Assembly (NCBI GenBank): GCA_017429685.1
Contig: JAFROL010000012.1
Location: 1-58,750, forward strand
Length of the DNA stretch: 58,750 nt
Source: Bacteroidales bacterium
GTDB lineage: Bacteria; Bacteroidota; Bacteroidia; Bacteroidales; P3
Direction: 5' to 3'
Of this stretch, positions 3,201 to 44,525 are shown piece after piece. Under the pieces are notes generated by a model, which saw nothing but the letters and a program-made list of their open reading frames with translations, searched no databases and was not told the DNA's origin. A program made the position numbers and the translations under genes. The stretch's first letter is position 1; each line of letters opens with the position of its first letter.

Positions 3201-4641
3201 CTTAAACTTGATAGGCCTTGGTATGGCACAGAAGACTACAGGCGGCACAGGTTCATACAATCTGGGTATTATGCAGCCCAAATATTGGTTTGAGGTGACC
3301 AACACAGCCCTCTTCCGCGTTACCCAGTTTGAATACAGTGGAAATGACAGGGTCAAGAAACCCTATATCCTACAGGGCGGTGTCATTGAGCAATGGGTTA
3401 CACAGCAGCAGGATGCAGGAGACAGAGTTTTGTATTTCCACGTGGGGGGCAATGTGTGGTTTAAGGAGTTCCACCGCGGTAGCCACCAAGACCATACAAA
3501 CAGGAGCACTCCACATCCGCCAATATCAGTCACAGGAGGAGACTTCGACAAATTCTACCTCACCGGATTCTATCAGTCGCAGGCCAAAATATACGATGAC
3601 AACGCCGAATGCTATATCAATGGCGGAAGGTTTGGCGAGATGGCCGGTGCAGGAATGGAAGGCATAGGAACCACTGCCGGCAAGGGTAATATTACTTGGA
3701 TTATCGACAATGCTGATATCGATGAGTTCTATGGAGGTGGCATCAACTTTGACAAGCCTGTTTTTGGCAATATAAATACAACCATCTCAAACAGCAACGT
3801 GCGACAGTACTGCGGTGGCCCAAAATTCGGCGATATGAAAAACGGACGAACTGTCACCACAACCGCAACCAACTGTGTTTTCGGCACCTATTTCGGTGCT
3901 GGCTATGGCGGCAACTCATACAGCCGTTATGCTCCGGCTAATAGAAACAATATAATTAATTTGCCAGGTAATGGTAAGCTTCCTGGAAATAATAGTGAAG
4001 TGAGATATTTTAATTCCTGGAACGAATGGGTGCAGGAAGAGTATACGCAATCTTATAACAGTACATACGGCGGTATCTCTACTCAGATTGATTACCAGTT
4101 TATTCCGATGTCAAGCAATGTCGAAAATGTGGCCCGTCTATGGGTTGAATTTGTCGGTTTCTCGCTGGCAACGACACACAATGTTACATCGGTGCTGAAA
4201 GGTTGCACCATTTTAAATGATTTCTATGGCGGTGGCAGCCTTGGCAAGGTTGAAGGTCCTGTGACATCCACGCTCGACAGCTGCATTGTGCACGGAAGTG
4301 TTTTCGGCGCCGGCTATTCGGCATCACTACCTACGGTAGAAGTTGATCAAATAGGTTTCCAAACAGAACCATACTATTATGAAAGTCTTGGTACTTATCG
4401 TACAGGTGTCAAAGGCCCGACGACAACTTACAGATGGGAGCACGCTGAGTCTTTCGGCATTGACAATACCAACCACATATTATATACCACTGTAGATCTC
4501 GACGGCCTTGGCAAAGTTATAGGCGATGTGGAGTTGAGAGTTTATGGCAAAACAAAGGTGTTTGGCAGTGTCTACGGCGGTGGCAACCAAGGTGAGGTGG
4601 AAGGTAATACAAAGGTGATAGTTAACGGAACGGGGTTGTGA
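262..4641 (+). CDS. Large secreted repeat protein with chitobiase-C-like and GLUG-like domains
   Basis: About 1459 residues from the ATG at 262; an upstream in-frame TTG at 250 is a less likely start. The N-terminus is a signal peptide (MKKSIIHI..., hydrophobic to about residue 25). Cleavage could be by signal peptidase I after KAQ or, less likely, at an LLGC lipobox. Around residues 230-375 are two tandem domains resembling the CHB_HEX_C family (motifs IYYTTDGTTPT and IHYSTDGSEPT). Then come GLUG-like repeats (YVGGIVGLLDGTSRVINC, YVGGILGYN), and a C-terminal half rich in YGGG/FGAGY glycine motifs separated by cysteine-containing strands. Role unknown, probably a surface or extracellular adhesin-like protein. 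No type IX sorting domain is present. The frame stops within a few bases of a composite repeat array, so the C-terminus may have been truncated by it. Confidence 0.8.
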   Translation: MKKSIIHIKNYLISYLFLLVFLLGCGAIKAQTDYSGIYYIASTGYNSANPTTNYYLCPTEGWCYYQAPDDFTSQANETPFLTTHRCRDGNYDVNAKAVWYVEKHPTEDYYYIRRVSDGKYIVLNGQINTTGDANRMRVHLEALAEPDDKALFALLPDPDGTALNIKPKTLSTYLTVNGGNDNSLVGVSGKTGGPTGYVNTKGIIGIYATRDNNSKFYLENAAIHSPVITNNHDGTFTITAEAGATIYYTTDGTTPTLSTPNIGSTPVTIYQTESLAIIKAMAHIAGDPFPSDVTTYNLPVCERPNIVVNNSDITISCATLGATIHYSTDGSEPTNLSPTYSGSFNLGSSTIVRAIATKAGYRKSNEAVYLPPLTVHSSSEMVDMSRRYFLASDFISTASIGTSDNPFTGVIDGQLNTVSGLDHPLVAYADGATIKNVFVDNVNISGGTNVGAICNEATGSTRIYNCGVLASNSTVAKDADGYDVITSCSSTISGSGYVGGIVGLLDGTSRVINCFSYANVARGNYVGGILGYNNVATTANSLNTMVMNCMFYGEVSGASIAPIYNGEIITNDGDASGVNNFNYFRIEASYIQNNNIAKVYNCALGAETRFLQRFEFYRHLLNSNRELAAWWATGDAANKDEMMKWVMEPSQIGTTIPYPVLKTPGRYASVVNYTPNSTAYDVAHRCQGRKLTGEGDNGVLHVTIQMGTGGAQFTAPTGAGLKPGESGVLDLIITDKDFEHFNFNYGKVQLPYYNDYCNGNYTGNRVVTGWKITSITGGTAGSFTTGDDAPAYNFADRKCTGKDLYSVSGRVFNQGAYWDVPEGVTAITIQPYWGKAVYLSDAYWDVTYKNGTGNDFTKAGYINDAMATPINVTTVGGSQRYNNGVSTFNGQIVFTSMSDAISSSKDNGLFKGATESASHTVYDYAVVLVGNYHHTSAPEASEGKPYTVTSIDLDGDNEPDYSLLLRFNSRLGFHPVRYDFLNLIGLGMAQKTTGGTGSYNLGIMQPKYWFEVTNTALFRVTQFEYSGNDRVKKPYILQGGVIEQWVTQQQDAGDRVLYFHVGGNVWFKEFHRGSHQDHTNRSTPHPPISVTGGDFDKFYLTGFYQSQAKIYDDNAECYINGGRFGEMAGAGMEGIGTTAGKGNITWIIDNADIDEFYGGGINFDKPVFGNINTTISNSNVRQYCGGPKFGDMKNGRTVTTTATNCVFGTYFGAGYGGNSYSRYAPANRNNIINLPGNGKLPGNNSEVRYFNSWNEWVQEEYTQSYNSTYGGISTQIDYQFIPMSSNVENVARLWVEFVGFSLATTHNVTSVLKGCTILNDFYGGGSLGKVEGPVTSTLDSCIVHGSVFGAGYSASLPTVEVDQIGFQTEPYYYESLGTYRTGVKGPTTTYRWEHAESFGIDNTNHILYTTVDLDGLGKVIGDVELRVYGKTKVFGSVYGGGNQGEVEGNTKVIVNGTGL

Positions 4642-42581: not shown

Positions 42582-44525
42582 TCAACACCCCTTGAACTCC
42601 TCGAGCGCAATGGTCGCCTCCTCCCATTCGCTCATTCGCTGCTCAAGCTTGTCTTTTAGCGACTGGTATTCAGCATAGAAATTCGCATCGGCAGCAATAG
42701 CGTCGCTGCCCGACGCAAGCAGTTGCTCTTTGGCGGCAATGTTTTCCTCCAGTTGCGCTATCTCCTGTTCAATTTTCTCCACATTGCCGCGCAGTTTGCG
42801 CAGCTCGCGTTCGCGCTCTTTCGACTGCAGGTAGTCGATCTTGCCCTGTTTTTCGCTCTCTGTTTTCCGCTTTTCGCTCTCTGCTTTCCGCTCTTTGTCC
42901 AAATCCTTCAGATGCTCCATCTTGCAGTATTCGAGAAACTCGAAAATGTCGCCCTTGAACTCGTGGACACCACCGTCGCGGAATTCGAACATCGAATCGG
43001 TCAGCCCCTGCAGGAAGTCGCGGTCGTGCGACACAACTATCAGTGTGCCTGTATATTGCAGCAGGGCGTTTTTCAGTATGTCCTTCGAGTCCATATCCAG
43101 ATGGTTCGTCGGCTCGTCGAGCACCAGCAGGTTGCAGGGCGTCAGCAGCAGTTTGGCCAAAGCCAGGCGCGCTTTTTCGCCACCCGACAACACCTTGACT
43201 TTCTTGTCGATATCATCGTTGTCGAAAAGAAACGAACCAAGAATGTTGCGTATTTTTGGACGTATGTCGCCCACTGCGGCATCGTCGATGGTCTGGAATA
43301 CGGTCTTCTCACCGTCGAGCATAGCTGCTTGGTTCTGTGCGTAGTAGCCTATCTGTACCTGATGCCCTAACTTGAACGTCCCGCTGTAGTCGGTCAGTTC
43401 GCCGACGATGATCTTGGCCATCGTCGACTTGCCTTCACCGTTGCGGCCCACAAAGGCCAGCTTGGAGCCTTTGGTAATCAGGAAGTCGACGCCGTCGAAC
43501 ACCTGGTTGTCGCCGTAGGCCTTGCCAAGATGCTGCGCCTCGAGGACTATCTTGCCGCTGTGCGGTGCCGGAGGAAACTGGAAATGAATGCTTTCGGTCG
43601 ACACCTCGTCGACGCTGATTTCCTCCATCCGTTCCAGCATCTTGATGCGCGACTGCACCTGTTTCGACTTGGTGGCCTTGTAGCGGAAACGCTCTATAAA
43701 GGCTTCTATCTGTGCCACTTGCCGCTGCTGGTTGGTCAGCGATGCCATCTGCGAGGCTCGGCGTTCCTGCATCTGCACAACATATTCGGAATAAGGCACT
43801 TTGTAGTCGTAGATGCGCCCTGCAGTGATCTCGATGGTGCGCTTGGTGATGTTGTCGAGGAACGTGCGGTCGTGCGACACCAGCACCACGGCGCCGTCGT
43901 AGGCCGACAGGTAGTTCTCGAGCCATTGTATCGACTCAATGTCGAGGTGGTTGGTGGGCTCGTCGAGCAGGATGAAGTCGGGGTGCTTCAGCAGCAGTTT
44001 GGCCAGCTCGACGCGCATCTGCCATCCGCCGCTAAATTCGGCTACAAGGCGCTGGAAATCACTGTGCTTGAATCCAAGACCGAGCAGTATCTTTTCGGCC
44101 ATTTCGCGTCGGTTGGAGCCACCGAGCAGGGCTATATGTTCCGTGACCTCGTTCAGCTGTGAAATCAGCCGTTCGTAGTCCTTCGACTCGTAGTCGGTAC
44201 GCTCGGCGACGAGTGTTGTAAGCCGTTGTTGTTCAGCTTCGAGCGCGTCGATTTGTTCGAAGGCGGTCATCGTTTCGTCGATGACGGTGCCCACGGTGTC
44301 GGGAATCATTTCCTGTGGCAGGTAGCCCACCGTCTGTCCCGACGCGATGACGACGGTGCCGGTCTCGGGTTCTTGGCGGTGGCACAGTATTTTAAGCAGT
44401 GTCGACTTGCCGGCTCCGTTTTTGCCGACGAGGCCTATACGGTCGCGGTCGCCGATGTTGAAAGTCACGCCGTCGAAAAGGTCAACGCCGGTAAACTGGA
44501 CTGAAAGATTATTGACTGAGATCAA
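42582..44525 (-). CDS. ABC-F family ATPase (Uup/YbiT-like)
   Basis: 647 residues, two ABC domains and no membrane segments. Walker A GKNGAGKST and GRNGEGKST; signatures FSGGWQMR and LSGGEKAR; Walker B ILLDEPTNHLD twice; the P-site linker is between them. The C-terminus is a coiled coil (LRKLRGNVEKIEQEIAQLEENI). ABC-F proteins act on stalled ribosomes. Residues about 543-559 (ERKAESEKRKTESEKQ) are encoded by a class 1 B array (42849-42896) at the start of the coiled-coil linker. The gene ends in a class 3 array. Confidence 0.93.
   Translation of the reverse strand: MISVNNLSVQFTGVDLFDGVTFNIGDRDRIGLVGKNGAGKSTLLKILCHRQEPETGTVVIASGQTVGYLPQEMIPDTVGTVIDETMTAFEQIDALEAEQQRLTTLVAERTDYESKDYERLISQLNEVTEHIALLGGSNRREMAEKILLGLGFKHSDFQRLVAEFSGGWQMRVELAKLLLKHPDFILLDEPTNHLDIESIQWLENYLSAYDGAVVLVSHDRTFLDNITKRTIEITAGRIYDYKVPYSEYVVQMQERRASQMASLTNQQRQVAQIEAFIERFRYKATKSKQVQSRIKMLERMEEISVDEVSTESIHFQFPPAPHSGKIVLEAQHLGKAYGDNQVFDGVDFLITKGSKLAFVGRNGEGKSTMAKIIVGELTDYSGTFKLGHQVQIGYYAQNQAAMLDGEKTVFQTIDDAAVGDIRPKIRNILGSFLFDNDDIDKKVKVLSGGEKARLALAKLLLTPCNLLVLDEPTNHLDMDSKDILKNALLQYTGTLIVVSHDRDFLQGLTDSMFEFRDGGVHEFKGDIFEFLEYCKMEHLKDLDKERKAESEKRKTESEKQGKIDYLQSKERERELRKLRGNVEKIEQEIAQLEENIAAKEQLLASGSDAIAADANFYAEYQSLKDKLEQRMSEWEEATIALEEFKGC
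42849..42896. repeat. Class 1 B-array insertion inside the ABC-F gene
   Basis: Degenerate CTTTCCG / TTTTCGCTCTC units, about 48 bp, encoding a Lys/Glu/Ser segment in the ABC-F linker. Because charged linkers are normal in this family, the insertion would be well tolerated. Confidence 0.7.

Follow-up and report, generated by a model that had tools for sequence, protein, structure and literature searches.

Rickettsia palindromic elements (RPEs) are dispersed palindromic repeats that lie in frame in unrelated genes and encode a conserved peptide; in the available part of their description, palindromes that often insert in frame are treated as a Rickettsia phenomenon, one that is only conceived of elsewhere (PMC10969869). 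Here we describe a dispersed repeat in a 58,750-nucleotide stretch of a Bacteroidales genome (hereafter the window; it comes from contig C23 of the 2.65-Mb draft genome G000, 52 contigs, 96% complete), which is most probably a non-autonomous, RPE-like palindromic element copied to many sites of one Bacteroidales genus. Its dispersal, fixed size, reading frame, empty sites and interchangeable arms are evident when the sequences are compared. As with RPEs, so far as their accessible description goes, the repeat is dispersed and palindromic, inserts in frame into unrelated genes with a conserved peptide, and has uninterrupted counterparts of these genes in relatives. RPEs are about 150 bp long, whereas this element spans 94 bp, consists of 8-nt words round a conserved core, occurs in Bacteroidales and has replaceable arms. 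RPE models exist in TIGRFAM; the NCBIfam lists at E≤1 for six element-bearing proteins held no RPE model (for one protein, among the best 25 of 225; the content of the release for RPE models is unconfirmed). The element works like an RPE, but it is not shown to be related to RPEs in sequence or to belong to one of their described families. Literature listings, which covered open-licence papers only, turned up no account of an element of this kind in Bacteroidales.

Other known systems share single traits with the repeat. Miniature inverted-repeat transposable elements (MITEs), including in-frame intragenic ERIC (enterobacterial repetitive intergenic consensus) and BOX elements, are likewise small, non-autonomous, built of inverted repeats and sometimes in frame, but here no target duplication was seen and no parent transposase was identified among the two families searched, PF01797 and PF00078. 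Repetitive extragenic palindromes and bacterial interspersed mosaic elements (REP/BIME) with their REP-associated tyrosine transposases (RAYT) are similarly palindromic, of high copy number and, like the G000 copies, mostly outside open reading frames (ORFs); the present element is longer and has an in-frame genic form, and Y1 transposases are not constant in genomes rich in it. Cyanobacterial short tandemly repeated repetitive (STRR) sequences are heptamer direct repeats. Tandem heptamers in gene gaps also make up two of the arm types found here, as in the TAACTGA repeats (PMC4679880), but the latter are described, in the part of the source available, as mainly intergenic arrays with no mention of a palindromic core, whereas here a fixed core has arms that face away from it, some of them genic. 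Finally, the coding palindromes of Nematomorpha mitochondria are inverted repeats inside translated genes; there, according to the accessible part of the report, both arms encode conserved host protein, whereas here the repeat is an added spacer (PMC6649704).

The basic unit is a fixed 94-bp imperfect palindrome, A-core-A′, and not the A-core-B composite that an earlier note on this DNA had taken for the unit: A-core-A′ is found genus-wide, with B arms among the several kinds of replacement. In a search with the GH97 protein of the window, residues 263–300 matched numerous further sites across the genus, which are copies of A-core-A′. An alignment of fifteen genic copies, drawn from eight genomes, spans 94 columns without gaps at a mean column identity of 84%, and their single frame encodes about ECVNALMRECVSADASATNAITQSHNNAI; 13 meet our ORF rule, and two (L119 and L230) sit 40 codons from the ORF end. 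Bases pair across the dyad in 73.2% of 600 cells at the true axis versus 21–38% when the axis is slid by 1–3 columns. With its 94 nt and its palindromy, we judged the element to be in keeping with RPE-type repeats of roughly 100–150 bp. The window holds one complete copy:

28017–28110, minus strand: complete A-core-A′ element of 94 bp, in frame in the GH97 gene 26412–28904 (minus strand), encoding VECVNALMRECVSADAANTNAITQSHNNAIT
28057–28070, minus strand: core of the GH97 element, a 14-mer with 3 mismatches

A covariance model (R1) was built from the 15 genic copies and favours genic copies for that reason. Its top match in G000 is the GH97 element (115.6 bits), previously listed as a fragment at 28018 and in fact the best complete element. 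R1 finds the element in 75/119 genomes of the genus (E≤1e-4, both strands), and the matches listed are mostly 94 nt long. Thus, the earlier proposal of a dispersed unit copied as a whole is borne out by the gapless genic copies, by this distribution and by the repeated composites described below. Outside the genus, 19 of the 294 other genomes in the order sample match R1 at E≤0.01, with 50.2 bits at best; viewed by eye, many of these 19 loci resemble inverted 8-mer arrays that lack the core, while no arrays are seen in some, and we rejected them as members. Several of the loci L326–L344, from other Bacteroidales families, carry inverted 8-mer arrays of other words, again without the core. An array-centre-inverted array layout may be common in the order. 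Homologues of one window protein came mainly from Bacteroidales metagenome-assembled genomes of rumen and gut (among the 80 loci listed).

Genic copies reside in unrelated genes, among them those for PheT (the beta chain of phenylalanyl-tRNA synthetase), GH97, CoaBC, ABC-F and a Mur ligase. The PheT, GH97, CoaBC, HtpG and NqrB proteins match their families on both sides of the insert, and the best-matching solved structures for GH97 (8wg0) and PheT (7n8y) lack the inserted segments. Seventy-three element-like sites were called, of which 5/41 in G000 and 20/32 in relatives fall in ORFs, the relatives' loci being partly peptide-found and so favouring genes. The 25 core sites in ORFs were reduced to 24 by dropping L145, whose context has no array; 22 of these share one frame and 2 another (p 4e-9 versus 1/3), some sites being orthologous pairs. 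Cases with heptamer arms (for example L103, L142, L165 and L254) weigh most for this bias because arms of this kind can have several open frames. Among 29 loci found with R1, six of which were used to build it, 20 are coding in the common frame, 5 lie in that frame less than 50 codons from the ORF end, 1 is in another frame and 3 are noncoding. The 31 top-ranked R1 places in G002, G004, G457 and G477 comprise 19 read through in one frame, 2 in the left arm only and 10 that are not genic; frames were judged by eye from peptides, and the top of the ranking favours genic copies. The 19 lie in ORFs of at least 287 codons, four of them 22 codons from the ORF end. A arms are open in the common frame in 21/25 cases in coding copies versus 7/34 in others (3 of the 7 from L119 and L230). 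One genic copy (L389, G457:C20:102213-102348) has its centre widened by a His/Asp run (SADAEAKHHHHHHDDDDAQATN) with the frame kept.

Orthologous sites in relatives are often empty or differently filled. At PheT loop 1, among 30 orthologues, G004 and G002 carry A-core-A′, G022 a heptamer palindrome, G012, G010, G023 and G001 heptamer arrays of plain-loop length, and G007 and G024 9-mer-like repeats; 21 loops are plain. At PheT loop 2, again among 30 orthologues, elements are present in G004 and G002, three loops are longer and 25 are plain. Both loops are plain in G000 itself. The loop-1 elements of G004 and G002 are 98.9% identical; at loop 2 the words have changed and the core is lost. Similarly, GH97 loop 1 (19 sequences, the window and 18 loci) is short in 13; G000 and G004 have A-core-A′ there, G007 has a pair of heptamers, G017 a remnant resembling the core, and two have longer unrelated sequence. 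GH97 loop 2 has an 8-mer array in G000, 9-mers in G007, G025 and G010 and 7-mers in G023 and G004, and the loop of the amidohydrolase follows the same pattern of differing arrays and plain loops across species. In the window these two loops contain:

26705–26739, no strand: array of A units lacking the core, in GH97 loop 2, a loop that in other species holds 7-mer or 9-mer arrays or plain sequence
33174–33217, no strand: B array, in the loop of amidohydrolase gene 32110–33363 (minus strand); relatives have other arrays or plain loops

Where the window has this B array, L278 (G033) and L277 (G035) have other palindrome-like inserts. Gene gaps were compared in the amidohydrolase-ABC-SpoU operon, which matches in 14/14 relatives searched. 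The gaps between open frames are about 390 and 290 bases in G000. Where relatives were compared (leaving out G035, whose frame was broken), fewer than 90 bases separate the amidohydrolase frame from the ABC frame, or the two overlap, and some gaps hold other arrays (10-mer in G004; 7-mer in G025, G023 and G003). Where flanks align, elements at orthologous sites are about as conserved as the flanking DNA (many flanks did not align and were uninformative), and faster or slower evolution of the element was not borne out.

In G000, the palindromic core has itself multiplied. The core GGCTGACGCGTCAGCC occurs at 6 window sites with at most 3 mismatches (4675, 16695, 30798, 31006, 31876 and 32023), compared with a mean of 0.38 and a maximum of 2 in 100 shuffles, and at 38 places in the whole genome with at most 2 mismatches (reversed control, 0). 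The exact core is near control level in most genomes of the genus, with the highest counts in G025 (9), G004 (8) and G002 (7). At no more than 1 mismatch among 393 genomes of the order, it was counted 9 times in G000, once each in three others and never in the rest. Strong amplification of the exact core is thus specific to the window's genome.

We sampled the surroundings of the core in 385 kb of G000 (the window plus 20 stretches picked around cores, hence biased), together with six shorter loci. Arm classes A, B, C and E are words read outward from the core, under rules drawn up after viewing the data; typical junctions are ACTAAC for A, (T)CGCTTTCC for B, (T)AGTTCTCC for C and AATTCG for E. 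Tandem 7-nt units form the B and C arms only, and these two classes blur. The 35 distinct contexts (at most 2 mismatches) were AB (15), BB (5), BE (4), AA (2) and BC (2), with one arm unclassed in 6 and none in 1; both arms could be classed in 28/35, and stand-alone arrays such as 33174–33217 occur too. Composites recur as wholes: B′-core-A′ followed by AAAATGTATTGTCCC and a 10-mer array is found at three places on C11 and one on C35, and B′-core-E on C23, C46 and C18. The core acts as a hub with interchangeable outward arms in G000 and some relatives. The corresponding features of the window, none with an assigned strand, are:

4640–4757: B′-core-A′ composite, intergenic; core 4675
14839–14890: A arm and half core, read through by rhamnosidase gene 13433–16279 (minus strand)
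14975–15030: A-type arm piece inside the same rhamnosidase gene, 13433–16279
15985–16045: heptamer piece GAGAACGGAGAACGGA, also inside rhamnosidase gene 13433–16279
16641–16764: A-core-B composite in rhamnosidase gene 16295–19291 (minus strand), in another frame (..SGLTRQPLTHSHINTLTHSHI..)
30763–30840: A-core-B composite in the SpoU/ABC gap; core 30798–30813
30841–30948: arm segment of 9-mers (CGAATTNAN) that separates two composites and has an imperfect palindrome inside it
30949–31068: A-core-B composite; core 31006–31021
31718–31836: 9-mer arm segment E; hub GTTCCGCAAAGCGGAAC at 31787
31837–31932: A-core-B composite; core 31876–31891, perfect
31933–32102: 9-mer arm segment E, perfect core and B array; hub 31989, core 32023–32038
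42850–42892: heptamer-like coding stretch in the ABC-F linker, a doubtful member

The tandem 8-mers (A) and 7-mers (B) reported in the earlier note are present where it placed them, and array lengths differ between loci in G000 as it had said. Its cores of complete forms were all recovered; those at 31006 and 32023 had escaped it. Its rule that a complete core always joins A to B does not hold, since the core at 32023 joins B to a 9-mer arm, that at 28057 joins A to A′ and only 15 of the 35 contexts are AB. The array pieces it called fragments at 14839, 14981, 16007, 26706 and 33173 exist, but genes read through them, and its member at 42849 is doubtful, as the coding sequence of a relative (L042) has an equally long heptamer-like stretch at this place. 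Its choice of RPEs as the nearest concept agrees with the palindromy, the in-frame genic copies and the empty sites.

How could such copies arise? A unit of about 94 bp, with two arms of 8-nt units running outward from the dyad core GCTGACGCGTCAGC, would be copied to many sites. In genes, a copy would survive only if it fell within a permissive loop and was read in the one frame that is open, to be kept vertically as a presumably translated spacer of about 30 residues. Between genes no frame constraint would apply, and most arms there retain in-frame stops. The core would serve as a joint at which one arm is swapped for other tandem-word arrays (heptamers B/C or 9-mers E), the resulting composites being copied again; arms may be exchanged where recombination, or a switch of template, takes place at the hairpin. 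A bolder version is possible but doubtful: a modular word-array system in which the palindromic core is the exchange joint for species-specific 7-, 8- and 9-nt vocabularies as outward arms, and which, genus-wide, would continually add low-complexity peptides to housekeeping proteins at their permissive loops, and spacers to the gaps between genes, copying with the help of neither the searched Y1 transposases nor reverse transcriptases.

Several observations weigh against a mobile, in-frame element. Covariation of the dyad pairs is not above shuffles (RNAalifold covariation term +0.73), so selection for the hairpin is not supported, and we rejected a hairpin maintained by covariation. In G000, 36/41 element-like sites lie outside ORFs (in a sample chosen around cores), making the element mainly extragenic there. 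Several copies are orthologous and hence not independent. "Coding" was itself defined by an open frame, making the frame and stop statistics partly circular, and A-type copies have a single open frame. A few codons are replaced by the element in both GH97 and PheT, and no target-site duplication was seen there, the relatives compared being diverged; nor was a clean donor-empty pair seen.

Could the arrays simply have grown in place? Local slippage would make tandem words in loops and gaps with nothing moving, as might be suggested by array lengths that differ between close relatives, by different words at one site across species and by the equal-length replacement of the PheT loop with GTGGAAA-type heptamers in G010, G023, G001 and G012. 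However, slippage cannot yield the convergence of the same gapless 94-nt sequence and core in unrelated genes and in 75/119 genomes, and we consider this explanation improbable. A repeat of the REP/BIME type, mobilised by a Y1 (RAYT) transposase, would account for the hairpin-like unit and the extragenic bias in G000, and Y1_Tnp (PF01797) is found in 29/41 genus genomes, with two matches in G000. But in relatives many copies sit in ORFs in one frame, and element count does not correlate with Y1 (rho 0.10) or, in the same 41 genomes common to both searches, with reverse transcriptase RVT_1 (PF00078; rho −0.19). RVT_1 is present in 45/119 genus genomes, without a match in G000, G002, G004, G025 and G027; no linked reverse transcriptase, which the earlier note had proposed to look for, was thus found in G000. 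Of the 14 genomes rich in the element (at least 10 R1 matches, counting both strands), 4 have no Y1 match (G006, G014, G019 and G429; 72–97% complete), 10 have none to RVT_1 and 2 have neither; these are drafts that may miss genes, and the absences are not final. Movement by RAYT is therefore unlikely in our view, and we rejected both families, the two covered by our driver search, as drivers. A phage or plasmid feature was also rejected: a 21-mer has no exact match in viral contigs, and blastn with one 94-bp copy gave nothing at E≤1e-5 among records of phages or plasmids.

The intergenic forms could instead be primarily regulatory or structural, acting as RNA hairpins, in protein binding or in translation control, with the genic copies as spill-over. 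At several loci an ATG follows closely after the composite (by eye, with no gene call), and TAACTGA heptamers are proposed as regulator sites in other bacteria, in the part of PMC4679880 that is available. Orthologous gaps in relatives lack such forms or hold unrelated arrays, many copies lie inside genes, and no Rfam family matches in the window at gathering scores, on which ground a known RNA family was rejected; a primarily regulatory role has, we think, little likelihood. The hairpin-forming inserts in essential genes such as PheT recall byp elements, which are inserts skipped by ribosomes, and excision from the mRNA or byp- or intron-like skipping would leave host proteins unaltered. Yet skipping needs no open frame, and genic arms are open in 21/25 cases versus 7/34 elsewhere (a partly circular contrast), which makes this very unlikely. 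The assembly or binning artefact that the earlier note had named as a risk has next to no probability: contig C18 of G000 starts with a repeated 120-bp composite, so that repeats may break assemblies, but assemblies made separately for different species have the same element at identical codon positions (PheT in G002, G004 and G448; GH97 in G000 and G004). An RPE-like repeat copied through the genus is the reading we retain, and with the element in 75/119 genomes of a gut genus and clear empty sites, movement, the origin of new protein loops and mere tolerance of peptides become testable. Arm exchange around a fixed core also connects palindromic repeats and heptamer arrays, which are usually treated apart.

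The window contains further arrays. Inverted pairs of 11-nt tandem arrays (TGTACGGTATA / GTACAAATAC) lie at 29671–29758 and 53398–53485; a relative (L001) has a near copy, and L036–L039 and L053 hold further inverted pairs of 11-mers. Arrays of the 10-nt word TCCCTTAACT fill gene gaps at 42503–42574, 46957–47026 and 48128–48242; the palindrome ACAATTCGTATTGT adjoins a 10-nt array at 42490, and the array at 46957 is much shorter in L042. Further palindromic hubs (TTCCGAC..GTCGGAA, GCTCGC..GCGAGC) flanked by 9-nt words such as TACAAGATT are found at 41884–42010 of the window, in L253 (3776–3970) and in L241 (1497–1560). A 69-bp unit stands in two copies with a 94% match at 58323–58460. The gene at 33461–34585 combines a TIR domain with Sel1 repeats and has a 108-bp tandem repeat in its DNA, and a single ORF at 38570–41830 joins DUF4838 to an LD-carboxypeptidase (S66) domain.

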